The notes beneath the pieces were generated by a model. The model was not told the DNA's origin. It did not search any database and worked only from the letters and a program-made list of their open reading frames with translations. 64,000 bases of DNA, from contig CANMOU010000001.1 of assembly GCA_947499555.1 (NCBI GenBank), forward strand, positions 1,364,001 through 1,428,000, given 5' to 3'. This document shows positions 8,456-29,375 of the stretch, piece by piece. Positions within the stretch are counted from its first letter, which is position 1; every line of letters starts with the position of its first letter. Both the position numbers and the translations under genes were made by a program. Source of the DNA: an uncultured Roseovarius sp. (GTDB lineage: Bacteria > Pseudomonadota > Alphaproteobacteria > Rhodobacterales > Rhodobacteraceae).

Positions 8456-8470
8456 GGCAAAGACTTAACT

Positions 8471-10271: not shown

Positions 10272-10344
10272 GCGACCCTTTTTCTTGTGAATCCACGGTC
10301 GGGCAGCTAATGCTTGTGACCGATTTGTGCCTGAAGGAAATGCA

Positions 10345-11304: not shown

Positions 11305-13046
11305 CCGGGTTTCTTGGCGTCACCTCGTCCTTGACGGGCCGACACTGGATCGGCCCTTCTGCAGAAACAGATCGCCTGTCAGAGGCGATGCACCAGCACA
11401 CTCATTTGTCGCCTCCGCTGTGCAGCACTCTGGTTCGCCTTGGCGTCGATGCAACCGAGGCTGCGGCTTATCTTGACCCCAAACTACGCGATCTGATGCC
11501 TGATCCGCGCCGCCTGAAAGACATGGAACTGGCGGCCAGACGCCTCCTGCAGGCTGTTGAAAAGAAAGAAAAGATATCCGTTTTCGCAGATTATGACGTT
11601 GACGGCGGTTGTTCGGCAGCGCTGCTGATCGACTGGCTCAGGCAAATGGGGCTGCCTGCAACTCTCTATGTGCCGGACAGGATTGATGAAGGCTATGGTC
11701 CGAACGCGCCCGCGATGGCCGAGCTCGCCGCGAGCCATGACCTGATCATCTGCGTCGATTGCGGCACCCTCAGCCATGATGCGATTGCCGCCGCAAAAGG
11801 CGCCGAAGTGATCGTACTCGACCATCACCTCGGCGGAGAAGTGCTGCCCCCGGCCTTGGCGGTTGTGAACCCCAACCGGCAGGATGAAGCGGACGGGTTG
11901 ACCCATCTCTGCGCCGCCGCCGTGGTCTTTCTCCTGCTGGTCGAGGCCGGTCGACAGTTTCGTGAGGCTGGGCAAAAGGTCCCTGACCTGATGACAATGC
12001 TCGATCTGGTGGCTCTGGCCACTATCGCGGACGTCGCCCCGCTTCGTGATGTGAACCGCGCCTTTGTGCGCACCGGCCTGAACGTCATGGCCCGCCGCCT
12101 GCGTCCCGGGCTTGTCGCGCTCTGCGATATCGCCCGGCTTGATACCGCACCAACGCCCTATCATCTGGGCTTTGTGCTCGGCCCGCGCATCAATGCCGGT
12201 GGCCGGGTTGGCCGCGCCGATCTGGGGGCCAGGCTGCTGGCCTGCACAGACCCGAACGAGGCGGCCGCTCTGGCTGAGAAACTCAATGATCTCAACGCAC
12301 AACGACAAGAGGTTGAAGCAGGTGTCCGCGCCGCAGCAATGGACCAGGCCGAAGCACGCGGGCTCAATGCGCCGCTTGTCTGGGCAGCCGGAGATGGCTG
12401 GCATCCCGGCGTTGTTGGCATCGTCGCCGCGCGACTGAAAGAGGCCACCAACCGGCCCGCGATTGTCATCGGGTTTGACGGTGACGAGGGCAAAGGCTCG
12501 GGTCGCTCGATCTCGGGCGTCGATCTTGGTCATGCCATTCAGCGCTTGGCCGCTGAGGGGCTTCTGATCAAAGGCGGCGGGCACAAGATGGCCGCGGGCC
12601 TGACCGTTGCGCGTGAAAAGCTTGAGCCCGCCATGGCCCGTCTGGCCGAGTTGCTGGATCGTCAGGGGGCCGGTCAGTCCGGTCCGGCGGACTTGCGGCT
12701 TGATGGCCTGCTCATGCCCGGTGCGGCGACGGTTGAGCTGGTTGAGCAAATCGAGGCCGCGGGTCCATTCGGGGCCGGTGCCGCAGGACCGCGATATGTC
12801 TTTGCCGATATGGCAATCCGCTTTGCCAAACGCGTCGGCGACAGCCACCTCAAACTGCGCTTTGGCGATGGCACTGGCCCAACCCTCGATGCCATCGCCT
12901 TTGGAGCCTATGACGGCCCGCTTGGTCAGGCTCTTGAGGCCCATGGCGGCGCACGCTTCCACCTGGCGGGGCGGCTCGACATCAACAGCTGGGGCGGCCG
13001 CCAGAGCGTGCAGCTTCGGCTGGAAGATGCCGCCCCTGCGCAATAG
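11301..13046 (+). CDS. recJ: Single-stranded-DNA-specific exonuclease RecJ
   Basis: A 5'-3' single-strand exonuclease used in recombination and mismatch repair. The start is GTG at 11301, overlapping the glpX stop by 4 bases, and gives 581 residues. DHH-family motifs are visible: DYDVDG at 97-102, CVDCGTLSHD, DHH at 174-176, and the DHHA1 glycine motif GGGHKMAAG towards residue 430. The C-terminal OB-like part ends in QLRLEDAAP. All metal-ligand motifs are intact. Confidence 0.96.
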   Translation: MTGFLGVTSSLTGRHWIGPSAETDRLSEAMHQHTHLSPPLCSTLVRLGVDATEAAAYLDPKLRDLMPDPRRLKDMELAARRLLQAVEKKEKISVFADYDVDGGCSAALLIDWLRQMGLPATLYVPDRIDEGYGPNAPAMAELAASHDLIICVDCGTLSHDAIAAAKGAEVIVLDHHLGGEVLPPALAVVNPNRQDEADGLTHLCAAAVVFLLLVEAGRQFREAGQKVPDLMTMLDLVALATIADVAPLRDVNRAFVRTGLNVMARRLRPGLVALCDIARLDTAPTPYHLGFVLGPRINAGGRVGRADLGARLLACTDPNEAAALAEKLNDLNAQRQEVEAGVRAAAMDQAEARGLNAPLVWAAGDGWHPGVVGIVAARLKEATNRPAIVIGFDGDEGKGSGRSISGVDLGHAIQRLAAEGLLIKGGGHKMAAGLTVAREKLEPAMARLAELLDRQGAGQSGPADLRLDGLLMPGAATVELVEQIEAAGPFGAGAAGPRYVFADMAIRFAKRVGDSHLKLRFGDGTGPTLDAIAFGAYDGPLGQALEAHGGARFHLAGRLDINSWGGRQSVQLRLEDAAPAQ

Positions 13047-13149
13047 GCCCATCGCCGCTTCAGACAGCCCCCTGCCCAATCAAGATTCTGCAAATTGCCT
13101 CTTGCGCTATGGCACGGTTTTCCCTAGGAAACGCCTCACGCCAAGGCAT

Positions 13150-13224
13150 GGCCCGTTCGTCTATCGGTTAGGACGCCAGGTTTTCAACCTGGAAAGAGGG
13201 GTTCGATTCCCCTACGGGCTGCCA
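13150..13224 (+). tRNA. tRNA-Glu (anticodon UUC)
   Basis: A 75-base cloverleaf including encoded CCA. The acceptor stem GGCCCGT pairs with ACGGGCT (a G-U at the first pair). The D arm contains CGTCTATCGGTTAGGACG. The anticodon stem CCAGG/CCTGG carries loop TTTTCAA, giving UUC. The T arm is GGGG-TTCGATT-CCCC. A recombinase remnant begins about 170 bases downstream, as expected when a tRNA 3' end has served as an integration site. Confidence 0.95.
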
Positions 13225-13392
13225 TTAACTTCCGCAACATCCAGTTCTTTCGAGTTGGAGCGAGACTTTCGCGTCGTTTCAAAGGCTTGGCGGTGCGGTT
13301 GTTTCACAAAGACGCAATACGTGGGACGAGACAGCCCTGATACTGCGCCGTGTCTCCTTCGGGCAATATCGTCTAACCAGTTTGTGATCGCG

Positions 13393-13665
13393 TTAAAGCG
13401 TTGCGATGAGCGAGCGTAGCTTGTCCCAACAGATCGGGGATTCAGTGTCGCGTCCCAGGTCGAGGTCAGGCCAATCGGCTGTTTGCCCGCAACAATATCA
13501 CGCACAATATCCGGTGCAGTGAAGGCAACGTTCAGGGTTTGCTGAACCCGTTTCCTGGTGGTGTTTTCACTTTCGGCAATCTGATCCGACGTCTCGCCGT
13601 TCCTGATCCTGTCCAGCCACTGATGCGACCGCGCGATGTTTGCGATCGATGTTGTGTCAGGCTTC
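13393..13665 (-). pseudogene. Remnant of a resolvase/recombinase C-terminal region
   Basis: Reading leftwards from a TAG near 13665, the frame gives IARSHQWLDRIRNGETSD, a helix-turn-helix-like stretch, then FTAPDIVRDIVAGKQPIGLT. This is the conserved C-terminal pattern of the large serine-recombinase-type family. After a one-base shift the expected tail PICWDKLRSLIATL follows and ends at a TAA. No N-terminal catalytic domain is present and the rest of the 575-bp gap is non-coding. It is a decayed fragment beside tRNA-Glu, and it is the only sign of a mobile element in this part. Confidence 0.7.
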
Positions 13666-13800
13666 TATGATTGTTCTGCCAACACGAACCGAGATTCAAC
13701 ACCGCGGCGACGCAGATTGAACGGGACACAAAAGGTGGATTCACCTAATTGAAAGCTTTCCTACAAACAGCGAATGCGAAGCGACAGACCGTCGTGCAGA

Positions 13801-14286
13801 TCAAAGACTCTTGATCTGCATCGAGACCACTTTTCCAGAGTCATAGGTTCGCTCGCCGAGTGCCAGGAACCCGTTTTTCTTGTGGAAGCTCAGTGAGCCC
13901 TCATTTGGCGGAACAAGGTCCATCTCTGCGGCCATGACCAGTCGCCCGTCTTTTTTTGCCGCCGCAGACACCTGGTCATAGAGTAGCTTTCCAAGCCCTT
14001 TGCCGCGGCCATCTTCGCCGATGACGATGCGATCAATATAGACGAATTTGTTCAGGCGTTCAGAGAACCACTCAAAATTTGCGTTTTCGTAGGCCGCGCC
14101 ATTTTGCATCGCAAGGACAAAGCCGATAACCGCCCCTTCTTCCTCGGCAACGATACAAAAGTCCGAAAGCTCCAGCAGATATTGAAAACGTGCCTCATCC
14201 ATCGGGCTGGTCACGGCGACAACAGCCTCATTCAAGGCAACAATGGTTGCGGTGTCTTCGGGGGTGGGGGCACGAAATTTGATCAT
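13801..14286 (-). CDS. GNAT family N-acetyltransferase
   Basis: A 161-residue single-domain acetyltransferase. The fold begins IKFRAPTPEDTATIVALNEA. The acetyl-CoA loop is IDRIVIGEDGRGKGLGKLLYD around residues 90-112, and the C-terminal motif FHKKNGFLALGERTY completes motif B. The substrate is unknown. It sits divergent from the LysR gene that starts the catabolic cluster, with an AT-rich gap of 104 bases between them, so it may share control with that cluster. Confidence 0.88.
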   Translation of the reverse strand: MIKFRAPTPEDTATIVALNEAVVAVTSPMDEARFQYLLELSDFCIVAEEEGAVIGFVLAMQNGAAYENANFEWFSERLNKFVYIDRIVIGEDGRGKGLGKLLYDQVSAAAKKDGRLVMAAEMDLVPPNEGSLSFHKKNGFLALGERTYDSGKVVSMQIKSL

Positions 14287-14340: not shown

Positions 14341-14358
14341 CATAAAATATATTTTTTG
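14341..14358. promoter_or_regulatory. AT-rich palindrome upstream of the LysR gene
   Basis: CATAAAATATATTTTTTG is palindromic at 8 of 9 pairs and lies 33 bases before the LysR start. A related half (CATGAAATGTAT) follows at 14371. The same CATAAA...TTTATG design occurs before the aldehyde dehydrogenase gene, which suggests one regulator for both. Confidence 0.55.
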
Positions 14359-14390: not shown

Positions 14391-15359
14391 ATGAGACTGA
14401 CCTACCGACAAGTTGAATACCTCAGAGAGGTGGCGCGGCACGATAGCATTGCGGCGGCTTGTAAGGTGCTTTCGATTTCGCAGTCTTCTGTGCTTGCCGC
14501 GATCGATGTCGCAGAAGATGTGACCGGCACACAGTTGTTTGCACGTCGCAAGGGCCATGGTGTTGTGCTGACCCCTGCGGGTCGCAGCTTTCTGATCTCG
14601 GCGCATCGGTTTCTGGCATCGGGCGAAGAGTTCTCGCGGGCATTGGAGCAGTTTGCCGAAGTCTCCGGGTCATCCTTGCGGATCGGCTGTTTTGTGCCTT
14701 TCGGGGCACTGCTTATCCCGCAAGTGATCCGTCGGTTTGTCGACCTGCACGGCACCACGGAGTTTACGCTGCTGGAAGGAGATCAAACAGAGCTGCGAAC
14801 CTGGTTGGCGACCGGTGAGGTGGACCTTGTTGTGACATATGACATCGGGCAGGAGTTTGGTGGCGGGACCACGCCAATCTGCAAGTTCCCGACACATGCG
14901 TTGGTCAACAGGAGTAACCCGATCGCGGAGATGGACGTTGTCTCGTTGCAGACACTGGCGGAAAACCCATTGATTCTTCTGGATTTGCCGGAAACCCGCG
15001 TTTACCTTCTAGCTCTTTTTGACCTTGTAGCACGCAGACCAAAAATCGGACTTCGGACACGGTCCTACGAAACGGTGCGGTCTGCTGTGTCCAACGGGCT
15101 TGGCGTATCGGTTCTCAACATACGTCCCACGCTTGATACCAGCCCGGATGGGCCCAACCTGGCGCGGGTGCCAATTTCAGAAAAAATCCGCCAGCCGACT
15201 CTTTTTGTCGCCGACCCCTACGGCGATCAAAAGCCAGCCAGTGTCGCAGCCTTCATTGCCGTGCTGCATCAATACATGGTCGATCTCGGGCCGGAGCGAT
15301 TTGCTGTGGTTGATCCGCGCTATGCTCAGGATCTGACCTATCCGGCACCCAGCCTATAG
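14391..15359 (+). CDS. LysR family regulator of the amidohydrolase/aldolase cluster
   Basis: A 322-residue regulator. The winged helix-turn-helix covers about residues 3-62 (LTYRQVEYLREVARHDSIAAA, then SISQSSVLAAIDVAED and LFARRKG), followed by a periplasmic-binding-like ligand domain from about 90 with FTLLEGDQTELRTWLATGEVDL. Its 3' end overlaps that of the convergent amidohydrolase gene by 6 bases. Position and shared palindromes make it the likely controller of the neighbouring divergent operons. The inducer is unknown. Confidence 0.9.
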   Translation: MRLTYRQVEYLREVARHDSIAAACKVLSISQSSVLAAIDVAEDVTGTQLFARRKGHGVVLTPAGRSFLISAHRFLASGEEFSRALEQFAEVSGSSLRIGCFVPFGALLIPQVIRRFVDLHGTTEFTLLEGDQTELRTWLATGEVDLVVTYDIGQEFGGGTTPICKFPTHALVNRSNPIAEMDVVSLQTLAENPLILLDLPETRVYLLALFDLVARRPKIGLRTRSYETVRSAVSNGLGVSVLNIRPTLDTSPDGPNLARVPISEKIRQPTLFVADPYGDQKPASVAAFIAVLHQYMVDLGPERFAVVDPRYAQDLTYPAPSL

Positions 15360-16466
15360 CACGCCGCCTCGTTGCAATTCGCCGTGCAGGCGCGTCACCA
15401 CATCATGATGAAACACGTCGGCGTGGTGATCGGGTTGCTGCCCCGTAATGCGCGCATGCAAGGGATCTTCGGCCACAATCTGAGAGCCTGACATTTCTTC
15501 GAGCATCGCATGGCCACAGAAAGGCACGTAAAGCTCGGAATAACCGCCTTCGTGTGCTGCTACGAGCTTACCGTCTGTGACATCCATCACCTGCCGTGTC
15601 ATTTGTTTGTAGGTTTCGGGCGAACACATCATGCGGGCCAATGGGTCAAACCCGGATGCATCGAATCCGCAGGCAATGATCACGAGATCGGCGTCAAATG
15701 CCTTGAGTTTTGGAACAACCAACCGTTCCATCACGTCCACATAAGCCTTGTGCCCACATCCCGGCGGCAGGGGTATGTTCATGTTGAACCCCGCACCGGC
15801 CCCCTCGCCGACGACATCCGTGCCGCCCGTGTCGTGCGGATAGCAGCGATCCTGATGGATCGAGATTGTCAGTACGTCATCGCGGTCGAGGAAGATCGCC
15901 TCGGTCCCGTTGCCGTGGTGCACGTCCCAGTCAATGACGGCGAATTTCTTGCCTAGGCCCGCTGCACGCGCGGCCTCGATTGCGATTGCGATATTGGCCA
16001 AGAGGCAGAAACCATTCGGGAAATCCGGCAGGCAGTGGTGCCCGGGCGGGCGAGACAAGGCATAGGCGTTGCGGGCCTGTCCGGTCTGCACGACTTCGAT
16101 CGCTTTGGTCACAAGTCCCGCAGACAACGCCGCGATCTCGAACGCGCCAGGGCCGAACGGAGTGCGCAACCCCAACTCGCCACCGCCATTGTCCGATTTC
16201 GATTTGAACGAGTCCAGGTAGTGCTGCGGATGCACGCGGGCCAAGTCTTCCATGCTCGCGGGCGGCGCGCCCATCATGTCGAGTTCGTCCGACAGGCCCG
16301 TCACATCCATCAGGTTCTTCAAGCGACGCTTGGTTTCCGGGGCTTCGGGCAAGCCCCCCGCCACCATCGGCTGCACCAATCCGCCCACGGGCGACAACAG
16401 CGCGTAGTTCCCTCCGAAGTGCCAAAAGCACTTTTCGTCCCAAACAAAGGCTGTTTTGTCGGTCAT
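15354..16466 (-). CDS. Histone-deacetylase-like amidohydrolase (class II HDAC / acetylpolyamine amidohydrolase family)
   Basis: A 370-residue zinc-dependent deacylase. Active-site motifs are complete: SRPPGHHCLPDFPNGFC with the tandem histidines, the zinc-ligand motif DVHHGNGT, CGFDASGFDP with the second aspartate ligand, and a C-terminal HEGGYSELY. Bacterial members remove acetyl or other acyl groups from small amines such as acetylpolyamines. It is followed upstream in the same orientation by the aminotransferase (gap 21 bases), so the pair forms a two-gene unit. The true substrate is not known. Deacylation of a transported N-acyl amine is inferred from the cluster. Confidence 0.9.
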   Translation of the reverse strand: MTDKTAFVWDEKCFWHFGGNYALLSPVGGLVQPMVAGGLPEAPETKRRLKNLMDVTGLSDELDMMGAPPASMEDLARVHPQHYLDSFKSKSDNGGGELGLRTPFGPGAFEIAALSAGLVTKAIEVVQTGQARNAYALSRPPGHHCLPDFPNGFCLLANIAIAIEAARAAGLGKKFAVIDWDVHHGNGTEAIFLDRDDVLTISIHQDRCYPHDTGGTDVVGEGAGAGFNMNIPLPPGCGHKAYVDVMERLVVPKLKAFDADLVIIACGFDASGFDPLARMMCSPETYKQMTRQVMDVTDGKLVAAHEGGYSELYVPFCGHAMLEEMSGSQIVAEDPLHARITGQQPDHHADVFHHDVVTRLHGELQRGGVL

Positions 16467-16487
16467 TTTTGAATCCCTTGTTCTAAT

Positions 16488-17684
16488 TCAATCCGCATCA
16501 TGCGCGGCCAGCACCCGGGCCGCGGCGCTGAGCGCACCAGAGCCATGTGGGATGTCTTGGGCGATCATGGATGTCTCAATTGCCCCAAGCACACCCATTA
16601 CCATGTGAATGTTCAAATGCCCCATATGGCCGATGCGAAAATGGTCTTCGATCTCATCCAGCGGAAAGCCAAGCGAATTACCCAAGGTGACGCCCGTTTC
16701 ATCCTGGCACCAGCGCCGGATCTTGTGGGCAACGCCGGGACTGGTGTTGATCGTCGTGACACCGGACGCGCGCTTGGCAGGATCTTTGATGTTGAGCGCA
16801 AGCGCACCCGCCTCAGACCAAACGTCAACCGCCGCCCAGACTGCGCGGGAAATGGTCGCGTGCCGTGCCCAGACGGCCTCCATCCCCTCTTCATCAATCA
16901 TCATCTGAAGCGTTTCACGCAACGCGAACATGTGGTGCGATGGCGGACTTCCGGACCAACGGGGATAAAACGACTTTGACTTGGCGCGGTCTGTCCAGTC
17001 CCAATACTGACCGGGATTGGCCCCCTTGCGTGCGGCGTCCGCTTTTTCATTGAAGAACACGAAGGACAGGCCAATCGGGTTCATCATCCCCTTCTGTCCG
17101 GCTGACACGACGACATCCACACCCCAGGCGTCCATCTCGAACCGATCACATCCCAGCGACGCGATGCAATCCACCATGAATAATGCGTCATGTCCCGCGG
17201 CGTCGATCGCGGCCCGTAAAGCCGGAATGTCGTTGCGCACGGAGGATGATGTTTCAGACTGCACCGCCAACACGGCCTTGATCTTGCTCTCCGTATCGCC
17301 GCGCAGAACATTCTCGAGCCGTGCGGGATCAGCGTCAGAGGCCATGCCATAGTCAACATATTCGACACTGAATTTATGGGTTGCGGCCACCTCGCCCCAT
17401 TTGTGGGAAAAGAACCCGTTACTGAGCACAACGATCTTGTCGCCTTCAGTCAGAGTGTTCTTGATTGCCGCCTCCCAGGCGCCATGGCCGTTCGCTAGAT
17501 ATATAGCGGCGTAACCGTCCGTTCGGACCACTTTTTTTAGCTGGTCTAAAAGGTGATCCGTCATGTCGACCAACTCGCCCTCGTATATATTGGCCGAAGG
17601 GCGATGCATCGCGTTCAAGACGCGGTCCGGCACCACGCTCGGCCCGGGGATAGCCATAATCGGGTGGCCTTTGTTGAGCGACAT
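16488..17684 (-). CDS. Class V PLP-dependent aminotransferase
   Basis: A 398-residue fold-type I aminotransferase of the alanine/serine-glyoxylate and purine-catabolism group. It begins with GHPIMAIPGPSVVPDRVLNAM, has the NGHGAWEAA region binding the cofactor phosphate, VDCIASLGCDRFEMDAWGVD with the pyridine-N aspartate, and SAGQKGMM carrying the Schiff-base lysine. The C-terminal FRIGHMGHLN is typical of the glyoxylate-using class. It is the promoter-proximal gene of the leftward unit and faces the aldehyde dehydrogenase across a 235-bp AT-rich control region. Confidence 0.92.
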   Translation of the reverse strand: MSLNKGHPIMAIPGPSVVPDRVLNAMHRPSANIYEGELVDMTDHLLDQLKKVVRTDGYAAIYLANGHGAWEAAIKNTLTEGDKIVVLSNGFFSHKWGEVAATHKFSVEYVDYGMASDADPARLENVLRGDTESKIKAVLAVQSETSSSVRNDIPALRAAIDAAGHDALFMVDCIASLGCDRFEMDAWGVDVVVSAGQKGMMNPIGLSFVFFNEKADAARKGANPGQYWDWTDRAKSKSFYPRWSGSPPSHHMFALRETLQMMIDEEGMEAVWARHATISRAVWAAVDVWSEAGALALNIKDPAKRASGVTTINTSPGVAHKIRRWCQDETGVTLGNSLGFPLDEIEDHFRIGHMGHLNIHMVMGVLGAIETSMIAQDIPHGSGALSAAARVLAAHDAD

Positions 17685-17767
17685 ATGGAGTCACCTTTCT
17701 ACTTATGACGGCTGAAGGGGCGCAAAACCGCCTTGTCTTGGAAAACACAACCACAAAAACCTAAGTG

Positions 17768-17871
17768 CATAAAATATAAACTTTGTTCGTATATCATTAC
17801 AAAATATATATACGTCAGTGACCCTGCATATACATCAAATATCACAACACGCATAAATTATATATTTTATG
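17768..17871. promoter_or_regulatory. Divergent control region with an 11-bp inverted repeat and a palindrome
   Basis: CATAAAATATA at 17768-17778 is repeated exactly in inverse orientation at 17861-17871. The right copy is part of a 20-bp palindrome (17852-17871; arms CATAAA/TTTATG, 9 of 10 pairs). The stretch is far more AT-rich than the genes and lies between the divergent aminotransferase and aldehyde dehydrogenase starts. The palindrome resembles the one before the LysR gene. Confidence 0.6.
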
Positions 17872-17919
17872 ATCTTTTCGATCTGTGCTCTTTTCCATCA
17901 AAACGCAGGAGTCGCGACC

Positions 17920-19362
17920 ATGAAAGACGCACGCAAATTCTACATTAATGGCGCTTGGGTATCGACCAAAGACGGTAAAGACACCCCTGTGATCAATCCC
18001 TCGACAGAAGACGCTTTCGCGACAATCACACTTGGCAGTTCAGCAGACGCGGATGCTGCCGTCGCTGCGGCCAAGGCTGCTTTCCCGGCCTGGAGCGCCA
18101 CCACGAAGGCCGAACGCCTCGCCCTGTTGCGCAACGTGCATGACGTCTACCTAAGCCGAAGCGCTGACATTGCCGCCGCCATGAGCGAGGAAATGGGCGC
18201 GCCCATTGATTTTGCCAACGGCATTCAAACCGGCATCGGTGCGGTACATATTGACGAATACATTGATGCACTGGACGCCTTTGAATTCGAACGCCCGCTG
18301 AATGATGCCGCGCCAAACGACCGGATCATCTATGAACCTATCGGGGTTTGCGCTCTTATCACGCCGTGGAACTGGCCGATGAACCAGGTGACGCTGAAAG
18401 TCGGAGCGGCGCTGGCGGCGGGTTGCACGATGATCCTGAAGCCATCTGAGGAATCCCCAATCTCGTCGATGGTCTTTGCCGAAATTCTGCACGACGCTGG
18501 TGTGCCCGCCGGGGTGTTCAACCTGGTCAATGGCGATGGTGTTGGTGTCGGCACGCGGCTGTCCGGGCATCCAGATGTGGATTTCGTGTCGTTCACCGGA
18601 TCAACACGCGCCGGGACGGCCATCACGAAGAACGCAGCTGATTCAGTCAAGCGCGTGTCGCTTGAGCTTGGCGGAAAAGGGGCGAACATCATTTTTGCAG
18701 ATGCGGACAAAGACGCCGTGCGCCGTGGCGCTGTGCATTGCTTTAACAACACAGGGCAGTCATGCAACGCGCCGACACGCATGCTGGTGGAACGCGCGCG
18801 CTATGACGAAGCCGTGGCCGAAGCCATTGCCGTGGCCGAAGGTCAGGCGGTTGATGCCGCCAACAAAACAGGCGATCACATTGGTCCGTTGGTCAACAAA
18901 ACCCAATTCGACAAGGTGCAGGCCATGATCGAGGTCGGCATTCAGGAAGGCGCGCGCCTTGTTGCGGGTGGCACCGGGCGTCCGCAGGGCCTGAACAGAG
19001 GGTATTTCGTGCGGCCAACGGTCTTTGCTGATGTGACCAACGACATGGACGTGATGCAGCAGGAAATCTTCGGACCGGTCCTGTGCGTTATGCCCTTTGA
19101 CAGCGAAGAAGACGCGATCGAGATCGCCAACGATACGCCTTACGGCCTGACAAATTATGTGCAGACCACGGACCCTGATCGGGCCAACCGCGTCGCCCGC
19201 GCGTTGAAGTCGGGGATGGTTGAAATGAATGGCAACTTCCGCTCAAAAGGCGCGCCGTTTGGCGGCTTCAAACAATCAGGCACCGGTCGAGAAGGCGGCT
19301 TTTGGGGTCTCGAAGAGTTTCTCGAAGTCAAAGCAGTTGGTGGGTGGCTTCCCGAAACCTGA
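17920..19362 (+). CDS. NAD(P)-dependent aldehyde dehydrogenase
   Basis: The start MKDARKFY is preceded by GCAGGAG, whereas the longer frame from 17869 overlaps the operator. The 480-residue enzyme has ITPWNWPMNQ for cofactor binding, the FTGSTRAG glycine loop, the general-base glutamate in LELGGKGANI and the catalytic cysteine in NTGQSCNAPTRM. It oxidises an aldehyde to a carboxylate; the substrate is unknown. It is the first gene of a rightward operon that continues into the hydratase and aldolase, 51 bases downstream. An aldehyde produced by deamination or by the aldolase is a plausible substrate. Confidence 0.92.
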   Translation: MKDARKFYINGAWVSTKDGKDTPVINPSTEDAFATITLGSSADADAAVAAAKAAFPAWSATTKAERLALLRNVHDVYLSRSADIAAAMSEEMGAPIDFANGIQTGIGAVHIDEYIDALDAFEFERPLNDAAPNDRIIYEPIGVCALITPWNWPMNQVTLKVGAALAAGCTMILKPSEESPISSMVFAEILHDAGVPAGVFNLVNGDGVGVGTRLSGHPDVDFVSFTGSTRAGTAITKNAADSVKRVSLELGGKGANIIFADADKDAVRRGAVHCFNNTGQSCNAPTRMLVERARYDEAVAEAIAVAEGQAVDAANKTGDHIGPLVNKTQFDKVQAMIEVGIQEGARLVAGGTGRPQGLNRGYFVRPTVFADVTNDMDVMQQEIFGPVLCVMPFDSEEDAIEIANDTPYGLTNYVQTTDPDRANRVARALKSGMVEMNGNFRSKGAPFGGFKQSGTGREGGFWGLEEFLEVKAVGGWLPET

Positions 19363-19413
19363 TAGAACGACGCGCGCGGAACGGCGCGTTTTAGCCGCAA
19401 CTTAGGACATGAC

Positions 19414-20229
19414 ATGACCCTGACTAACGACCAGATCACGCAGCTTGCTTCTGCCTATGATGAGGCGGAACGCACCCGTCAGGTTGTCCGTGCGCCAAGC
19501 GTACAGTTTGCGGGCTTTTCGATGGATGACGCCTACAAGGTGCAGTCGGCCTGGGTGGATCAGCGCCTGGCGCGGGGCGAGAGGGTCATCGGCCACAAGA
19601 TTGGCCTCACAAGCCGCGCCATGCAGCTGGCCGTGGGCATTGATACGCCGGATTATGGCGTCCTGACCGATGCGATGGTGATCGACGACGGGGCAGTGAT
19701 TGCACCAGATCGATTCATATTCCCGCGTTTCGAGGTTGAACTTGGTTTCAGACTCAAGGCATCGCTGGCGGGGCCTGATGTCACCGTTTTCGATGTTCTG
19801 AATGCGACCGATTGGGTCATCCCGGCCATCGAGGTGATCGATTGTCGCGCACATCTAAGCGATCCCGACACAGGCGTTCCGCTCAATGTCATGGACTCGA
19901 TCGCGGACAATGCGGCCAATGCTGGTATCATCTGGGGCGGCAATCCCGTGCGCCCGGATGAGATTGACCTTCGGATGGTGCCGGGCGTTCTTTACCGGAA
20001 CGGCAAGGTCGAAGAGACAGGTATTTCTGCGGGTGTGTTGGGCCATCCCGCCAATGGCCTCGTTTGGCTCACGCGAGAATTGCACAAACTCGGTGTTGCG
20101 CTCGAGGCTGGTGAATTCGTTCTGGGCGGCAGTTTCACCCGACCGGTGGCGGGCCAGCCCGGTGACACCTTCCAATGCGATTTTGGATCACTGGGTCAGA
20201 TCACATGCTCCATTGGGGAGGACACCTGA
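19414..20229 (+). CDS. 2-oxo-hept-4-ene-1,7-dioate hydratase-like enzyme (HpaH family)
   Basis: A 271-residue member of the fumarylacetoacetase-related hydratase group that adds water to 2-oxo-alkenoates. Family landmarks are GHKIGLTSRAMQLA, the metal-binding region FEVELGFRL, PAIEVIDCR, and the C-terminal GGSFTRPVAGQPGDTF. Closest resemblance is to HpaH of homoprotocatechuate breakdown, but no ring-cleavage genes are present. Its stop overlaps the aldolase start (TGATG), so the two act in sequence: hydration, then retro-aldol cleavage. Confidence 0.88.
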   Translation: MTLTNDQITQLASAYDEAERTRQVVRAPSVQFAGFSMDDAYKVQSAWVDQRLARGERVIGHKIGLTSRAMQLAVGIDTPDYGVLTDAMVIDDGAVIAPDRFIFPRFEVELGFRLKASLAGPDVTVFDVLNATDWVIPAIEVIDCRAHLSDPDTGVPLNVMDSIADNAANAGIIWGGNPVRPDEIDLRMVPGVLYRNGKVEETGISAGVLGHPANGLVWLTRELHKLGVALEAGEFVLGGSFTRPVAGQPGDTFQCDFGSLGQITCSIGEDT

Positions 20230-21011
20230 TGCCAGCCCCAAAAAACACATTTAAAGCGGCCCTGAGGAGCAATCGCCCACACATGGGGTGCTGGGTTGGC
20301 CTCGCCTCGCATTATGCGGCCGAAATTACTGGAACAGCCGGATTTGACTGGCTCTTGATCGATGGCGAGCATGCCCCGAATGACCTGCGTTCGATCTCGG
20401 ATCAGGTCGGTATCCTTCAGGCCAGCGATAGCGACATTGTCGTGCGGTTGCCAAATGGCGACCCTGACCTGATCAAACAAATGTTGGATGCCGGGGTGCA
20501 AAGTCTCTTGATCCCGATGGTCGAAAGCGCCGAACAGGCCCGCGATCTGGTGCGCGCGGTCCGGTATCCGCCACATGGAATTCGGGGCGTGGGCTATGCC
20601 CTTGGGCGCGCCTCGCGGTTCGCGGCAATCCCTGACTATCTGAAGACGGCTGATCAAGAAATTTGCCTGCTCGTGCAGATCGAAAGCAAAAAAGGGCTTG
20701 AGTCACTGGACGACATCCTTGCGGTTGAGGGGGTTGATGGCGTGTTCATCGGCCCGGCTGATTTATCGGTTGATCTTGGCTATGCGCCAACCGCCGATGC
20801 GCCCGAAATTCACGCCATTATTCTGGACGCGTTGGACCGTATTCACGCCGCTGGATGCGCCGCTGGCATCCTGACGCTGGACAAAAAATTCATCCAAACC
20901 TGCATCAAACACAATGCCCGCTTTGTTGCGGTTGGCATTGACGTGCTGACATTGGCCAATGGCCTGCGCGCCCTGGCATCGGAGGCGAAAGAGGTGGCAA
21001 ATGCTCGATAG
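20229..21011 (+). CDS. HpcH/HpaI family class II aldolase
   Basis: A 260-residue enzyme for cleavage of a 4-hydroxy-2-oxo acid to pyruvate and an aldehyde. The start ATG overlaps the hydratase stop. Motifs: [14 protein letters not shown] with the catalytic histidine, [12 protein letters not shown], the metal-binding glutamate in [10 protein letters not shown], and [10 protein letters not shown]. It closely resembles 4-hydroxy-2-oxoheptanedioate and 2-dehydro-3-deoxyglucarate aldolases. It overlaps the following ATPase gene by 11 bases, which ties metabolism to transport in one operon. Confidence 0.92.
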
Positions 21012-21783
21012 TATGAACGCCGCCGATTATTTAACAGTCGACGGCCTGCACAAAGCCTACGGCGCGCTGGATGTCATCAAAGGCGTTAGCTTTTCTGGCG
21101 CTGAACATGAAGTCATATCCCTGATCGGTGCATCAGGGTCGGGCAAGTCGACAATCCTGCGTTGCATCAACCTGCTTGAAATGCCAAATCGCGGTGAAAT
21201 CACGATTGACGGTGTCCGCCTGCCCCTGTCCGACGTTGATGCTGGCGAGCGCAAGGTCACGGACCAAAAAGCGCTCAGTGCGATCCGCGCCCGTTTGGGC
21301 ATGGTGTTCCAAGGGTTCAACCTTTGGGCGCATATGACGATCCTTGAGAATGTCATCGAGGGACCTGTACATGTTCTGGGTCAGTCGAAATCCGAGGCAA
21401 AAGATCGCGCGGAGACCTTGCTGGAACGCGTGGGCATCGCCGACAAGCGTAACAACTATCCCAGCCAGCTTTCGGGCGGCCAACAACAGCGCGTTGCCAT
21501 CGCGCGCACGCTTGCCATGGATCCTAAGGTCCTTCTGTTTGACGAACCCACATCGGCGCTCGATCCCGAAATGGTCGGCGAAGTGCTGAATGTCATGCGT
21601 GACCTCGCAGATGAAGGCCGCACGATGGTTGTGGTCACCCACGAAATGGGCTTCGCGCGAGAAGTCTCAAACAAAGCCATTTTTCTGCATCAAGGCAGAA
21701 TTTCCGAACAGGGCCCGCCCGACGAAGTGTTCGGCAATCCGCAATCTGCGGAATGTCAGCAATTCCTCGCGAAGGTTCTGTAA
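21001..21783 (+). CDS. Polar amino-acid-type ABC transporter ATP-binding protein
   Basis: A 260-residue ATPase. AGAGG seven bases before the ATG at 21001 supports this start inside the 3' end of the aldolase gene. Walker A is GASGSGKST (residues 43-51), the signature is LSGGQQQR, and Walker B is [12 protein letters not shown], followed by the switch histidine in VVVTHEMG. It belongs to the HisP/OccP group for basic amino acids, opines and similar substrates. Confidence 0.95.
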
Positions 21784-21805
21784 TTATCACCTAGGGAGAG
21801 AACTC

Positions 21806-22543
21806 ATGAAAATCAGACTTTTAGCCGTCGGCCTTCTGGCCGGGGGATTGGCAAGTGCGGCCTCGGCGCAGGATGTTCTGCGCATCGCAACAGAGGGCGC
21901 CTACCCTCCATTCAACAACGTGACAGCTGATGGCGAGTTGGTCGGCTTTGACGTGGAAATCGCCGAAGCGCTGTGCGCGGCCATGGAGCGGAACTGCGAG
22001 ATTGTCGCCCAGGATTGGGACGGGATCATCCCCGGTCTGGTTAACGACAAATATGACGCGATCATCGCGTCCATGTCGATCACCGAAGAACGCAAACAAG
22101 CCATAGACTTCAGCGCGCCTTACTACAGCAACTACCTCAGCGTCGTCGCCGCAGATGGCACAACTGCAACGCTTGAAGAACTTGCCGAGGTTTCCATCGG
22201 TGCGCAGCGTTCAACCACCGGGTCGCAATGGGCAGAAGATACGTATGGCAGCCGGGCTGATATCCGTTTGTATGACACCAACCCAGCTGCTTTTTCTGAT
22301 CTCTCCGCCGGACGGGTCGAGACCGTCGTGGCTGACTTTCTGCCTGCAGCAGAATGGGTGAGCGCAAACCAGGGGTTTGGTTTCGTTGCCGAAAAGATCG
22401 ACATCGCTGACCAGATCGGCATTGGGGTGCGTAAGGGCGAAGACGCGCTGCGCGAAGACCTGAACTCGGCAATTGAAGCCATCCGAGCCGATGGGACGTA
22501 TCAGACCATCAGCGTCAAGTATTTCGGCATCGACATCTTTTAA
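21806..22543 (+). CDS. ABC transporter periplasmic substrate-binding protein
   Basis: A 245-residue solute-binding protein (family 3). GGGAG precedes the ATG at 21806. The signal peptide covers residues 1-21 (cleavage after ASA). The mature part begins QDVLRIATEGAYPPFNN and contains GFDVEIAEALC, DWDGIIPGLVNDKYDAII and MSITEERKQAIDFSAPYY, the standard ligand-site scaffold for lysine/arginine/ornithine/octopine-binding proteins. An acidic and polar ligand pocket suggests a charged amine or amino acid, but the exact ligand cannot be read from sequence. Confidence 0.93.
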   Translation: MKIRLLAVGLLAGGLASAASAQDVLRIATEGAYPPFNNVTADGELVGFDVEIAEALCAAMERNCEIVAQDWDGIIPGLVNDKYDAIIASMSITEERKQAIDFSAPYYSNYLSVVAADGTTATLEELAEVSIGAQRSTTGSQWAEDTYGSRADIRLYDTNPAAFSDLSAGRVETVVADFLPAAEWVSANQGFGFVAEKIDIADQIGIGVRKGEDALREDLNSAIEAIRADGTYQTISVKYFGIDIF

Positions 22544-22611
22544 AATCGAAAAGAGGGGCCGGACGTTTTACATATCAGGCCCCGTCTTTGCACAGTCGCG
22601 GAAAGGGCAAG

Positions 22612-23334
22612 ATGGAACAGATCAACACAGTTCTAGGCCCATTGTCCTTTGGCCAGAGCGGCTGGGGCGACGATCTGCTGAGCGGTGGCTTGCTGACATT
22701 GCAACTGGCCATCTGCGCCATGCTGGCCGGGTTGACGCTGGGCTTGGGTCTTGCGGGCATGAAACTGGCCAAAACCCGGCTGCTGCGGTGGCCTGCCTCT
22801 GCTTACACTCTCTTCATTCGCGGCGTTCCGGAATTCCTCGTTCTGCTTTTTGTCTTCTTTGGCTTTGACCGTTTGATCAACGCCGTAGCCACGTCGCTTG
22901 GCTTTCAAGGCGGCTATGAGGTGCCAAAGTTTGTCGCGGCCGTTGTCGGTCTATCCCTCATCTTCGCGGCCTATGCCTGCGAAATCTTTCGCGGTGCGTA
23001 TCTTGCGGTCCCTACGGGCCAAATCGAAGCTGGACAGGCGATCGGACTGTCCCGTCCGCAAGTGTTCTTTCGCATCCGCTTTCCGCAGCTCTGGCGTTTC
23101 GCGATCCCCGGTTTGGGAAATCTCTGGATGGTCGTGCTCAAAGACACGTCCCTTGCGGCTGTGATTGCCTTAAACGAATTGTTGCGTATGGCAAAACTAG
23201 GCGGCGAGACCGAGCAAAGCCCCCTCCTGTTCTTTGCCGCCGCGGGCGCGCTCTACCTCGTCATGACATCGCTTTCGGACGTTGGCCGAAGCGCGCTGGA
23301 ACGGCGTGCCAGACGCGGCATGGCAGGAGCATAG
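22612..23334 (+). CDS. ABC transporter permease (HisQ type)
   Basis: A 240-residue inner-membrane permease starting MEQINTVLG after GAAAGGG. It has about five hydrophobic segments. The cytoplasmic coupling loop runs from EAGQAIGLSRPQVFFRIRFP, the EAA-like motif. Together with the next gene it forms the heterodimeric channel for this importer. Confidence 0.92.
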   Translation: MEQINTVLGPLSFGQSGWGDDLLSGGLLTLQLAICAMLAGLTLGLGLAGMKLAKTRLLRWPASAYTLFIRGVPEFLVLLFVFFGFDRLINAVATSLGFQGGYEVPKFVAAVVGLSLIFAAYACEIFRGAYLAVPTGQIEAGQAIGLSRPQVFFRIRFPQLWRFAIPGLGNLWMVVLKDTSLAAVIALNELLRMAKLGGETEQSPLLFFAAAGALYLVMTSLSDVGRSALERRARRGMAGA

Positions 23335-23338
23335 AGCG

Positions 23339-24079
23339 ATGTATCAAGACTTGAAATTCTGGGTGTCCGATACGATTTGCGCGGGCCTTTCCCCGCTGGC
23401 CGGGCCGTTATTAGGTAAAGCCTGCCCACGCTTTATCGACGGATTCCTCGTCACGACCGAACTGTTGGCACTCGCCTGCGGCATCGGCTTTTTCCTTGCG
23501 ATTGCCCTGACATTTGCGCGCATGAGTGGCCGCACCGTTCTGGTGTGGCCTGCCCAGGTCTTTGTCTATGTCTTCCGAGGAACACCGCTTCTGGTGCAGC
23601 TCTGGATCATCTATTTTGGGGTTGGCAGCCTTGGGGAACAGGGGTTGGGCCCGTTTCTGTGGACCTTTTTCAAGAATCCGTGGTTGGTTGGCCTCCTGGT
23701 CCTGACGCTAAACACCAGTGCCTATGTCTCAGAGATCTTTCGCGGCGGATTGGCTAACATCGAGAGGGGTCAAATGGAAGCGGCCCTGTCCATCGGCATG
23801 CCCTGGCTCAGGGCAATGCGCCGGATCATGTTGCCACAGGCTATTCGCATCGCCTGGCCCGCCTATGGCAACGAATTGATCCTGATGATGAAGGGCAGTG
23901 CGCTGATCTCAACGATCACAGTGATGGATTTGATGGGGCAGACACGGACAATCTTTGCCCGTAATTTTGATCTGAATACCTATCTCTATGCGGCGATCCT
24001 TTACCTCGTGTTGGCGGGGTGCATTTCTGCTTTCGTCGCCGTCTTCGAACGGCGGTTTCGGCACGACACTGCGCGCTGA
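23339..24079 (+). CDS. ABC transporter permease (HisM type)
   Basis: A 246-residue permease whose ATG lies 4 bases after the previous stop. It shows FVYVFRGTPLLVQLWIIYFG and the coupling motif MEAALSIGMPWLRAMRRIML, characteristic of the HisM/ArtM group. This is the last gene of the operon; the next gene converges from the other strand. Confidence 0.92.
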   Translation: MYQDLKFWVSDTICAGLSPLAGPLLGKACPRFIDGFLVTTELLALACGIGFFLAIALTFARMSGRTVLVWPAQVFVYVFRGTPLLVQLWIIYFGVGSLGEQGLGPFLWTFFKNPWLVGLLVLTLNTSAYVSEIFRGGLANIERGQMEAALSIGMPWLRAMRRIMLPQAIRIAWPAYGNELILMMKGSALISTITVMDLMGQTRTIFARNFDLNTYLYAAILYLVLAGCISAFVAVFERRFRHDTAR

Positions 24080-24110: not shown

Positions 24111-24986
24111 TCAAGTCTGTCGGGGGCCACCAAACATGACGAGGTTACCCGCGATGGTCAGAGCGATCCCTGCGATGGCGAGACCTGTCCACTCAAAACC
24201 CTCGAACATCGAAGACACGATCAACGCGACAATCGGAAACAGCACAGTTGCATAACCGGCTTGGGCGGCGCCGATGCGGTCCACCAGCATCAGATAGCAG
24301 GTGAAGCCGATGACCGACGCGAACACCGCAAGATACAGCAGTGCCGCGATGTATTGCGTGTCGCTTGGAATAGGGATCGGGATACCCCGCGTGGTGGCGA
24401 TCAGCAAAAGCAAAACAGCACCAAGGCCCATGCCCCATGCATTTGCGATCACCGGCGTGACACCCAATGCACTGTTCTGTCTCGACGCCATGTTGCCGAG
24501 AGAGAAGAGGGCCGTTCCAAGGGTCGCCCATGCGATGCCGATTAGTGCATCCTTATTTGTGCTGATCGCGAGGTCTTGCCAAAAAAGCAGAGCAAGGCCA
24601 AGGAATCCAATAAGACCTGCACATAAGACACGCCACGTGATCGCCGCGCCAAAGAACAAGCGCGCATTGAGGGCATTGAAAATCGACGCCAATGAGAAAA
24701 TGACCGAGACCTGGCCAGAGGAAATGAAAGATGTCGCATTGTAAAGCGCAACAAAGTTGAGACTGAACAGCAAGGCGGCCTGAAGGACGACAAAGCGCCA
24801 GACTTGTGGAAAAACCAGCTTCCTAGATGCGGCCAGAACCAGAAGGAGCAAGACAGAGGCCAAGCCCATGCGATAGGCCACTGAGACCATTACGGGGATG
24901 GGTCCGATTTGCCAGGCAATAGCAATCCAACTCGTGCCCCAAACGAACACAGTTACAATAAAGAGCGCTGCGTTGTTCATGATCAC
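24111..24986 (-). CDS. EamA/DMT family transporter
   Basis: A 291-residue protein with about ten hydrophobic helices in two EamA repeats, the drug/metabolite exporter fold. The start is either GTG at 24986, overlapping the preceding glutathione transferase stop as GTGA, or ATG at 24980. It is probably translationally coupled to that gene. The substrate is unknown. Confidence 0.88.
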   Translation of the reverse strand: MIMNNAALFIVTVFVWGTSWIAIAWQIGPIPVMVSVAYRMGLASVLLLLVLAASRKLVFPQVWRFVVLQAALLFSLNFVALYNATSFISSGQVSVIFSLASIFNALNARLFFGAAITWRVLCAGLIGFLGLALLFWQDLAISTNKDALIGIAWATLGTALFSLGNMASRQNSALGVTPVIANAWGMGLGAVLLLLIATTRGIPIPIPSDTQYIAALLYLAVFASVIGFTCYLMLVDRIGAAQAGYATVLFPIVALIVSSMFEGFEWTGLAIAGIALTIAGNLVMFGGPRQT

Positions 24987-25699
24987 TTCTTGGGATCGGC
25001 CGAGAAATTCGCGGCGTTCTGAGCTAAAAACGCCGCATCCTCATCGTCGCCCCAAAAAATCGGCCGCGCTTCGGGAATGGTCAACGCCCGTTGCACGGCG
25101 GGGCGCGCATCCATGCGGCCCAGCCACGCTCGCAGATGGTCCAGCCCATCTATGGACACATTGGCGAAGCTGTGCGCGCGTGCCCACGGATAGGTTGCCA
25201 TGTCGGCAATGGTGTATTGGCCTGCGGCCAGCCAGTCATGTGTTTCAAGCCGCGTGTTCATCACGCCCAGAAGACGCCTTGTCTCAGATTTGTAGCGATC
25301 AATAGAGAAGGGCTCATTGTGGCCGTTCGGCGCGGCGATCCGCTGAAAATACATCGCCTGCCCCATCATCGGGCCCACGCCCGCCATTTGAAACATCAGC
25401 CATTGCAAGGTTTCAGACTTTTCCTTTGGCGCGGCTGGCAGGAAACGGTCGTATTTTTCGGCCAGATACCACAGGATTGCCCCGCTTTCGAAAACCGTAA
25501 AATCATCATTGCTGCGATCAACGATGGTTGGAATGCGGCCGTTTGGGTTCAGCGCGAGATAGTCCGGCGTTTTTTGTTCTTTCTTCGAAAAATCAACGGC
25601 CGTCACATCGTAAGCGACATCCGCCTCTTCCAGAAAAATGACAGGTTTGTACCCGTTCATCGTGGCGGCAGTGTAGAGATGGATATCCGGTTGCGACAT
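24983..25699 (-). CDS. Glutathione S-transferase family protein (YghU/YfcG-like)
   Basis: A 238-residue enzyme with an N-terminal thioredoxin-like domain (IHLYTAATMNGYKPVIFLEE; NPNGRIPTIVD for glutathione binding; VFESGAILWYLAEKY) and an all-helical C-terminal domain with TIADMATYPWARAH. It resembles the Nu-class enzymes active as disulfide-bond reductases on glutathione conjugates. It is related to the GST at 26883-27503, and the two flank an Old Yellow Enzyme gene. It is probably part of a leftward operon. Confidence 0.92.
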   Translation of the reverse strand: MSQPDIHLYTAATMNGYKPVIFLEEADVAYDVTAVDFSKKEQKTPDYLALNPNGRIPTIVDRSNDDFTVFESGAILWYLAEKYDRFLPAAPKEKSETLQWLMFQMAGVGPMMGQAMYFQRIAAPNGHNEPFSIDRYKSETRRLLGVMNTRLETHDWLAAGQYTIADMATYPWARAHSFANVSIDGLDHLRAWLGRMDARPAVQRALTIPEARPIFWGDDEDAAFLAQNAANFSADPKK

Positions 25700-25765
25700 G
25701 ATCCTGGCTTTCTAAGGAATTGTGACCCGGGCAGAGCATTTCATCTCCGCCCGGGTCTTTGTGGG

Positions 25766-26848
25766 TTAGGCTGCAACGGACAGAGCCTTGTAATCGGTAT
25801 ACCCTTTCTCATTTCCGCCATAGAGCGTTTCGTCATCCACCGCGTTCAACTCGGCTCCAAGACGCAGCCGTTCCGGCAGGTCCGGGTTGGAGATGAACAT
25901 CCGGCCAAATGAAACAGCTGCAGCGCCTTTTTCGACGGCCTCGATGGCGCTGCCTTTGTCATAGCCGCCATTGGCAATGTAGTTGCCGGTATAGGCCGTC
26001 CGAAGACGTTGGATCAGATCCTTATCCGGGCCCGACGGCTCAAAGCCCGGGAAAGCCTCGACAACATGCAGGAAGGCCAGATCACGTTTGTCGATCTCCG
26101 CGAACAGGTGGCTGTAGGTTGCGCTCGCCTCGCCGTCATGGATGTCGTTGAAGGTTCCGGTGGGTGACAACCGAACGCCGACCCGTCCACGACCGATCCG
26201 CTCGGATACTGCATCGACAACGTCCAGCAACAGCCTGGCACGGTTTTCCGGACTGCCACCATAGACGTCAGTTCTATCGTTAGTGTTGGTCGATATGAAC
26301 TGGTTCAACAGATAGCCGTTCGCACCATGGATCTCGACACCATCAAAACCGGCATCGATGGAGGCCTGCGCCGCATCGGCGTATTCAATCACAATCGCTT
26401 CGATCTCGGCCACAGACAGCTCTCTGGGTGAAGACACATTTGTCGGACCGTCTTCGGTAAAGGTGCCAGCCTCGGCTTGAATAGCCGATGGTGCCAACGG
26501 CGCTTTGCCGTCCGGGAGCAACGATGTGTGGCTGATGCGGCCCACATGCCAAAGCTGCAGAACGATCTTGCCGCCCTTCGCGTGAACGGCGTCTGTGATC
26601 TCTTTCCACGCGGCAATTTGCTTGGCGTTGTGGATGCCGGGTGTGTTGACATATCCCTTGGCCATCGGCGCGATCTGCGAGCCTTCCGAGATGATCAGGC
26701 CGGCACTGGCGCGTTGCGCATAATATGTCACGGCCATCTCGTGAGGTGTTCCGTCCGGGTAGGCACGGTTGCGCGTGAGAGGGGCCATCAAGACCCGGTT
26801 TTTGATGTCGATATCGCCCAGTTTTCCGGGCTCAAAGAGGATGCTCAT
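25766..26848 (-). CDS. Old Yellow Enzyme family ene-reductase (NemA-like)
   Basis: A 360-residue FMN-dependent reductase of electrophilic alkenes, nitrate esters or maleimides. Motifs: MAPLTRNRAYPDG, LQLWHVGRISH, and HGANGYLLNQF with the substrate-anion His-x-x-Asn pair, then YGGSPENRARLLLDVVD and the flavin phosphate region SFGRMFISNPDL. It sits between two glutathione transferase genes, consistent with detoxification of reactive electrophiles. Confidence 0.95.
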   Translation of the reverse strand: MSILFEPGKLGDIDIKNRVLMAPLTRNRAYPDGTPHEMAVTYYAQRASAGLIISEGSQIAPMAKGYVNTPGIHNAKQIAAWKEITDAVHAKGGKIVLQLWHVGRISHTSLLPDGKAPLAPSAIQAEAGTFTEDGPTNVSSPRELSVAEIEAIVIEYADAAQASIDAGFDGVEIHGANGYLLNQFISTNTNDRTDVYGGSPENRARLLLDVVDAVSERIGRGRVGVRLSPTGTFNDIHDGEASATYSHLFAEIDKRDLAFLHVVEAFPGFEPSGPDKDLIQRLRTAYTGNYIANGGYDKGSAIEAVEKGAAAVSFGRMFISNPDLPERLRLGAELNAVDDETLYGGNEKGYTDYKALSVAA

Positions 26849-26882
26849 TGAAGTGGTCCTTAAGATTGTGATGTGGAGAGTG

Positions 26883-27503
26883 TTAGAAATGTTCTTGATC
26901 GGGGATCAGGACGCCTTTGGCGCAACCTGGCCGAGTAGCAAGGTGATCATGCCATCGTCCGAGGTTTGGAAACTCATCCAGGTCGATGTCGATGGCATCA
27001 TGCGCGCGCACCCAGCACCAGTTGGCAATGTCCGCAATGGAGAAGTCACCGGCCAGAAATTCGCGGTCTGACAGTCGCGTATCAAGCACGCCATAGAGCC
27101 GCCGCGTTTCGGTGTGATACCGCTCAATGACAGACGGAAGTTTCTCAGGAAAGCTGTGCGAAAACACATAAGCCTGGCCTTGCATCGGGCCAACGCCAGC
27201 CATCTGGAACATCAACCACTGAATGACTTCCGAGCGGCCGCGCGCATCCGACGGCAATAGCTTGCCGGTCAGCTCGGCCAGGTAGATCATGATCGCACCG
27301 GATTCGAAAACCGCGAAATCGTCGTTGTCACGATCCACAATCGCGGGGATGCGACCATTGGGGTTCAGCTGCATGTATTCGGGGTTTTTCTGATCACCTT
27401 TTCCAAGATCTAGGGCGTTCAGATTGTAGGGCAGGCCCAACTCTTCCAGAGTGACGGACGCTTTCCATCCATTGGGTGTTGCCGCCGTATATAGATCAAT
27501 CAT
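26883..27503 (-). CDS. Glutathione S-transferase family protein
   Basis: A 206-residue GST. The N-terminal domain has [19 protein letters not shown] and [20 protein letters not shown]. The C-terminal domain has [14 protein letters not shown] and [15 protein letters not shown]. Same subfamily as the neighbouring GST, from which it probably arose by duplication. It lies 34 bases upstream of the Old Yellow Enzyme gene in the same direction, so the two are likely co-transcribed. Confidence 0.93.
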
Positions 27504-29336: not shown

Positions 29337-29375
29337 ATTATAACGAAGCTCAGACAAACCAAATGGAAACTCGAA

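Follow-up and report, generated by a model that had tools for sequence, protein, structure and literature searches.

The question raised by the locus described here is what an HDAC-like zinc deacetylase, a class V aminotransferase, an aldehyde dehydrogenase (ALDH), a HpaH-type hydratase, a HpaI-type aldolase and an importer of polar amino acid type do side by side in the genome of an uncultured Roseovarius sp. (Rhodobacteraceae; GenBank assembly GCA_947499555.1, contig CANMOU010000001.1). The window, the whole stretch of 64,000 nucleotides that was analysed (positions 1,364,001 to 1,428,000 of the contig), holds in these genes a real, rare and tightly controlled regulon of catabolic type. The chances seem about even that this LysR-controlled regulon serves the import and degradation of a cationic alpha-amino acid that resembles lysine, ornithine or arginine, or of a derivative of such an acid.

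The cluster begins with the reverse-strand gene of a GNAT-family acyltransferase (13801..14286, PF00583), which diverges, with an operator in between, from the gene of a LysR-type regulator (14391..15359, forward strand, PF00126/PF03466). The regulator gene overlaps tail to tail, at 15354-15359, with the reverse-strand gene of the deacetylase (15354..16466, PF00850; motifs RPPGHH, EGGY and DWDVHHGNGT), beside which lies, on the same strand, that of the aminotransferase (16488..17684, PF00266), a diverged relative of an enzyme common in the family. The forward unit comprises the ALDH (17920..19362, PF00171, the start codon being picked from its AGGAG), the 2-oxo-enoate hydratase of the HpaH family (19414..20229, TIGR02312), the HpaI-family pyruvate aldolase (20229..21011, PF03328), and the ABC importer with its ATPase of polar amino acid type (21001..21783, PF00005), a family 3 periplasmic binding protein with a cationic-amino-acid pocket (21806..22543, PF00497), and permeases 1 and 2 (22612..23334 and 23339..24079, both PF00528). 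All the genes named in an earlier, sequence-only reading of this DNA are present at full length at the locus, and the junctions that it pointed out, TGATG between the hydratase and aldolase genes and the 11-base overlap of the aldolase and ATPase genes (21001-21011), are as described. Its unit, correct in the named genes, was drawn too small, since the GNAT and LysR genes share a promoter region; the operator, the rarity of the system and the kinship of the aminotransferase to the common family enzyme were also overlooked. The GNAT gene, found in all four carriers introduced below, with relatives 66-83% identical, belongs to the system.

Relatives of the cluster were sought by the aminotransferase, with exact peptide patterns, in one genome per species (84,980 species); 398 relatives were confirmed, and the best 80 of them were kept. 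Three of these 80 are 78-94% identical, two in uncultured Tateyamaria (L138 and L139, the latter Tateyamaria 2-245) and one in Roseovarius albus (L140), and all eleven core genes are found around each of them, so that, with the window, the carriers found are four, all of them marine bacteria. Presence was checked by tblastn because the gene calls of the script, made with a home-made GC-frame rule, miss or shift genes (the aminotransferase and deacetylase in L138, the aldolase in L139). The remaining 77 of the best 80 are at most 58% identical, and around them no HDAC, hydratase, aldolase, GNAT or LysR relative was found by tblastn at E <=1e-15, a threshold at which one ALDH (30%) and, in 48 loci, ATPase relatives of at most 36% were seen; distant or cut-off versions may be missed by such a scan, 17 of the 77 loci being shorter than 15 kb. 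The sequence-only reading had joined the deacetylase-aminotransferase pair and the aldolase operon into one catabolic-type system, to be abandoned if the two did not co-occur elsewhere. Both operons are held by all four carriers found, under a common operator that occurs in those genomes at the cluster only, and the joining thus stands.

The gene order GNAT, LysR, deacetylase, aminotransferase and, divergently, ALDH, hydratase, aldolase is identical in the four carriers, and none of the genes called past GNAT in the other three carriers matches window bases 1-13800; the arrangement is therefore beyond chance. Some L139 gene calls beyond GNAT match the GST, lumazine-binding-like and membrane-protein genes that lie on the other side in the window, and one L138 gene matches the ALDH (37%). 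The importer follows the aldolase in three genomes; in L139 it is located beyond GNAT. It is the combination that is rare, its parts being common. Thus, the aminotransferase has a relative in 136 of the 149 family genomes, own included (E <=1e-60), the best family matches listed being 39-57% identical, apart from the own one; the deacetylase in 67 of the 149, own included, the others 47-66% identical (E <=1e-70); and the hydratase in 63 of the 149 (E <=1e-60), while at the level of the class 6 of 385 genomes, the own one among them, have a hydratase match at E <=1e-85. Of the 85 genomes of the genus 2 carry the LysR orthologue, and of the 394 of the family 1, again own included (E <=1e-80). 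Two near misses were met in the family set, one genome (G136) with HDAC (59%) and aminotransferase (49%) relatives about 7 kb apart and no aldolase, ALDH or hydratase relative in that stretch, and another (G104) with HDAC (55%) and hydratase (47%) relatives about 12 kb apart and, again in the stretch, no aldolase or aminotransferase relative; no second version of the cluster was present at the other HpaH-like loci inspected.

The control of the cluster became visible on aligning, across the four genomes, the intergenic regions of both divergent gene pairs, in which a repeated motif stands out; a strict scan for T-N11-A dyads gave no consistent site. The resulting 17-base operator, YATAAAATATAWWNTTT, with at most one mismatch, has 4 matches in the window vs 0 in 100 shuffles, and 15 matches in the four whole genomes (3.7-4.7 Mb), all inside the cluster and some of them being two readings of one palindromic site, vs 3 for a reversed control pattern. 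Site 1 (14341..14357, forward) lies between GNAT and LysR and adjoins a TTGACA kept in all four carriers; site 2 (17768..17784, forward) stands on the aminotransferase side and site 3 (17855..17871, reverse) on the ALDH side of the other divergent promoter, 87 bases apart in opposite orientation, the corresponding distances in the carriers being 87, 88, 91 and 90 bases. The operator is common to the promoters of the regulator and of the target genes, as in a LysR regulon, and the LysR protein is presumably its binder. In L139 an operator of 24.5 of 28.6 bits, noticed before the pattern was written but excluded from the matrix, precedes the moved importer, and a weaker site (19.3 bits) stands at a distance of 90 bases, on the side of an alanine dehydrogenase gene that diverges from the importer, in a layout like that of the aminotransferase/ALDH promoter; a stretch of 68 bases, 76% identical, is common to both promoter regions of L139 (E 2.9e-9, the search covering two short sequences). 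This alanine dehydrogenase (502.6 bits vs a cut-off of 391.85) is the sole match of its genome at E <=1e-40, and each of the other three carriers has one, elsewhere, 62-65% identical. The operators thus tie the moved importer to the enzymes, and their position next to alanine dehydrogenase hints at pyruvate as the amino acceptor; alanine as a pathway product is likewise hinted at and not proved.

Several family-model matches of the importer are under their cut-offs: the ATPase to HisP (360.4 bits, cut-off 466), permease 2 to ArtM as its best (168.5, cut-off 248), and the binding protein to the lysine/arginine/ornithine (LAO) model (218.7 vs 256.35). An EhuA match is under its cut-off as well (303.4 vs 345.4). 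The pocket was read from an alignment against the table of OccJ, NocT and LAO pockets in the parts consulted of PMC5740067. Around the guanidyl place of the binding protein stand Glu, Tyr, Trp and Gln as in OccJ, at the carboxylate Arg, again as in OccJ, with Ser and Thr, and, in addition, the LAO-type Asp. These residues are identical in the four orthologues except for that Thr, which is Ile in L139, and the acidic residue, aromatic pair and Arg sought in a pocket of the LAO and OccJ kind are present in all four, as Glu, Tyr, Trp, Arg and Asp. The guanidyl and carboxylate contacts are thus shared with the octopine-binding OccJ and the LAO proteins, whereas the keto-acid signature of the opine binders, Ser-Asn-Thr-Ala-Asn, is mostly gone, reading Ser-Leu-Thr-Gly-Asp in the window (2 of 5 kept) and keeping 1 of 5 in L139. 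A cationic alpha-amino acid appears, from these residues, to be the likeliest ligand class.

What is observed are the genes with their conserved order, the operators in front of the units and the residue changes; the steps that we infer from them may be arranged as follows. A cationic amino acid would be brought in by the ABC importer, and the zinc deacetylase would take an acetyl group off it or off an intermediate, this group being perhaps added inside the cell by the GNAT enzyme as a protecting group. With pyruvate (or glyoxylate) as acceptor of the alpha-amino group, the aminotransferase would yield a 2-oxo acid together with alanine (or glycine); a 2-oxo-3-enoate, which the substrate would provide as such or which would arise when C4 loses a group, would be hydrated to a 4-hydroxy-2-oxo acid, which the aldolase would cut to pyruvate and an aldehyde, the latter being oxidised by the ALDH. 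The pyruvate so released could serve as the acceptor in the transamination. The chemistry of the sequence-only reading (import, deacylation, deamination, cutting to pyruvate and an aldehyde) is partly supported and is kept as a model, with the exception of its N-acylated diamine, in place of which the pocket fits a cationic alpha-amino acid. That this makes a new route, by which a cationic amino acid is transaminated and its 2-oxo-3-enoate hydrated and split by retro-aldol cleavage to pyruvate and an aldehyde, with a ring-cleavage-derived hydratase-aldolase pair re-tuned for a substrate without a distal carboxylate, is a tentative proposal, held well short of an even chance. The route matches no pathway found, and the description of the system as undescribed agrees with the literature of one open-access library, in which no such system was found at the level of its listings. 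Canavanine, S-methylmethionine, gamma-hydroxyarginine, acetyl-lysine, baikiain and opines were considered as substrates and not adopted for lack of evidence. Ectoine catabolism, which consists of a deacetylase, an aminotransferase, a dehydrogenase and the Ehu importer, is alike in general layout; however, its deacetylase is of a different family, and the EhuA match is under the cut-off.

The hydratase passes the NCBIfam HpaH model (377.5 vs 351.5 bits; 312.4 bits to the solved 2eb4), and residue 157 is Leu in all four orthologues vs Arg in 39 of 39 distinct homologues (44-65% identical, from loci gathered in the analysis); E. coli HpaH also has this Arg. Two solved 2-oxopentenoate hydratases align Ile at the position. 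The loss of Arg157 may mean a lost contact to a distal carboxylate, with one result, given below, to the contrary, and the hydratase is a borrowed and probably re-tuned one; nothing on this arginine was contained in the passages of PMC12718150 consulted on the true OHED hydratase. The aldolase, an ordinary member of the HpaI family, misses the HpaI cut-off (338.6 vs 368.8 bits; 280.9 bits to the solved 7et8), and the ALDH is a generic one, under the cut-offs of all 25 NCBIfam families listed, with 3i44 as the best solved relative (604.7 bits).

The best solved relative of the deacetylase is 5li3 (441.4 bits), and among the best 60 of the 137 listed the HDAH enzymes are nearest, followed by the dimethoate and propanil hydrolases, the acetylpolyamine amidohydrolase 6phr reaching 135.7 bits. 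Its three motifs are intact in the four orthologues, and its gatekeeper place, which we take to be where PEG or PIS would otherwise stand, reads PLA. According to the parts consulted of Graf et al. 2024 (PMC11532494), RPP and EGGY accompany the removal of acetyl and not of longer groups, and they are shared by the polyamine deacetylases, so that the motifs alone do not exclude polyamines. The closest solved relatives and the RPPGHH and EGGY motifs are those of the HdaH-type classical deacetylases, cluster 1b in the same source, from which the window enzyme differs in sitting inside a dedicated regulon. The enzyme is HdaH-like and not polyamine-like in sequence, and a deacetylase activity is predicted for it. 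The neighbourhoods of HDAC genes elsewhere were dropped as a clue to the substrate because the contexts are too varied: neighbours differ among the homologues of five genomes, and the 8 inspected of 36 plasmid records with an HDAC match show branched-chain ABC importers, an MFS gene, an hpa cluster and hut genes. As separate observations, a 68% identical HDAC gene on a Leisingera caerulea plasmid (L218, ~9998-11107) is surrounded by ABC importer genes, hut genes and a pair for a Rieske-type oxygenase, where perhaps an N-methylated or acylated histidine compound is used, and overlapping MFS and HDAC genes stand beside an hpa cluster on an Agrobacterium plasmid (L244, ~6832-9125) and in Klebsiella aerogenes (L219, ~8802-11107).

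The aminotransferase has BhcA, the L-aspartate-glyoxylate aminotransferase, as its best NCBIfam relative, at 267.2 bits in the window and 260.6-271.2 across the four orthologues (cut-off 650), and is also under the PhnW and PPAT cut-offs. The beta-hydroxyaspartate cycle was rejected on this score, the other copy of the own genome (L134) also reaching just 274.2; the window cluster lacks bhcBCD genes, and none were recognised in four aminotransferase loci read by eye (L120, L123, L141, L160). That the separate matches of 35-41% are the true BhcA is a guess. Twenty-two positions are fixed in the clade of the carriers, and at each of them at least 85% of 75 relatives differ (75 of the 77 non-clade loci, two having no called frame long enough); several of these positions fall in motifs at the pyridoxal phosphate and carboxylate sites.

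Several other explanations have to be set against a regulon for a cationic amino acid. The meta-cleavage of homoprotocatechuate (4-hydroxyphenylacetate) has the same hydratase and aldolase families at its HpaH-HpaI step, in adjacent overlapping genes, and a homoprotocatechuate or aromatic-amine pathway, in which an N-acetyl aromatic amine is released by the deacetylase and ring cleavage is encoded elsewhere in the genome, would agree with the hydratase score, with HpaE as the best NCBIfam match of the ALDH (418.5 vs a cut-off of 638.35 bits), with one HpaF-family match of the own genome that exceeds the cut-off (47.1 vs 26.5 bits, besides four FAH-family matches), and with the 53% identical HDAC gene near the hpa cluster of the Agrobacterium plasmid. 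However, the window cluster has an importer, of amino-acid type, an aminotransferase and a deacetylase instead of the other hpa genes, and no hpa cluster was seen in the five own-genome stretches around the HpaF- and FAH-family matches, read by eye and with HpaD not searched, one of which holds hmgA-fahA-like genes. The arginine kept in all 39 homologues is lost from the hydratase, and homoprotocatechuate is therefore unlikely; we regard this whole explanation as improbable. The statement of the sequence-only reading that ring-cleavage genes are absent holds for the cluster, which has neither these nor decarboxylase genes, and its conclusion against homoprotocatechuate is favoured by the lost Arg and by those five stretches, with the HpaF-family match weighing the opposite way. 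Its acetylpolyamines or N-acyl diamines are still less probable as substrates: the HDAC fold does include acetylpolyamine amidohydrolases, but the deacetylase is far nearer to HDAH than to 6phr and reads PLA, not PEG or PIS, at the presumed gatekeeper place, and polyamines have no alpha-carboxylate for the Arg of a pocket that keeps its alpha-amino-acid contacts, so that this part of the reading is not borne out.

A detoxification or antimetabolite defence, in which a toxic analogue of an amino acid would be made harmless and not used as food, is unlikely, though more probable than the pathways just named. The GNAT protein, which shares an operator with the regulator, is weakly like the arsinothricin N-acetyltransferase ArsN1 (30.9 bits, cut-off 210), and the EamA exporter, the OYE-type reductase and one GST described below are linked to the cluster in three of the four carriers; a dedicated importer and a route to pyruvate favour nutrition, and no operator precedes the EamA, GST or OYE genes. 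A mere side-by-side position of two or more unrelated modules has as little probability as the acetylpolyamines. It would account for the relatives of the deacetylase and the aminotransferase lying separately in most family genomes listed and for a break in R. albus, whose DNA identity to the window rises from 72-74% to 87% at the aldolase/ATPase junction (window 20843-21034, L140 6655-6846), a sign of recombination; against it, the units and the relocated importer have the same kind of operator in front of them. The reading as a cationic amino acid regulon has, in turn, its own difficulties. A side chain already acetylated is not cationic and would fit the pocket poorly unless acetylation is intracellular, and no gene was identified for the unsaturation or for a C4 leaving group, so that transamination and hydration are not yet joined. 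The hydratase still passes the HpaH model in all four orthologues, and NahK, whose substrate carries a distal carboxylate, also aligns Ile at position 157. Alanine dehydrogenase lies beside the cluster in one genome of four, the history of the importer half differs in R. albus, and the Agrobacterium HDAC gene is evidence toward a link with homoprotocatechuate. The operator pattern was built from these very sites, its informative part being the lack of others and the site of the moved importer.

Downstream of the importer, on the reverse strand, lie the EamA exporter gene (24111..24986, PF00892) and a GST, OYE-type reductase and GST group (24983..27503; PF02798, PF00724). The exporter, the OYE and the second GST genes are the ones linked in three of four carriers, and an orthologue of the first GST is found in two of four; no operator match precedes any of these genes (24111-27503) in the pattern scan of the window, and they are linked to the cluster with uncertain membership. 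Small proteins of the Lumazine_bd_2 (NTF2-like) type and a small membrane protein adjoin the cluster in several copies (window 27638-28111 and 29322-31008; L139 5528-6334 and 15344-16266). A second cluster, at 35519-40816, points to the use of hydroxyproline or a related imino acid; it comprises a proline racemase/hydroxyproline-type enzyme, FAD amino-acid oxidases and a lyase of the DapA family, DapA alone being over its cut-off (206.9 vs 206.15).

If the regulon for a cationic amino acid is true, automatic annotation, for which the HpaH cut-off is passed, would assign aromatic catabolism to an amino-acid system, and the HpaH-HpaI pair would no longer be a proof of homoprotocatechuate breakdown. 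The operator offers a clean handle for finding the inducer, and hence the substrate, of this rare system.

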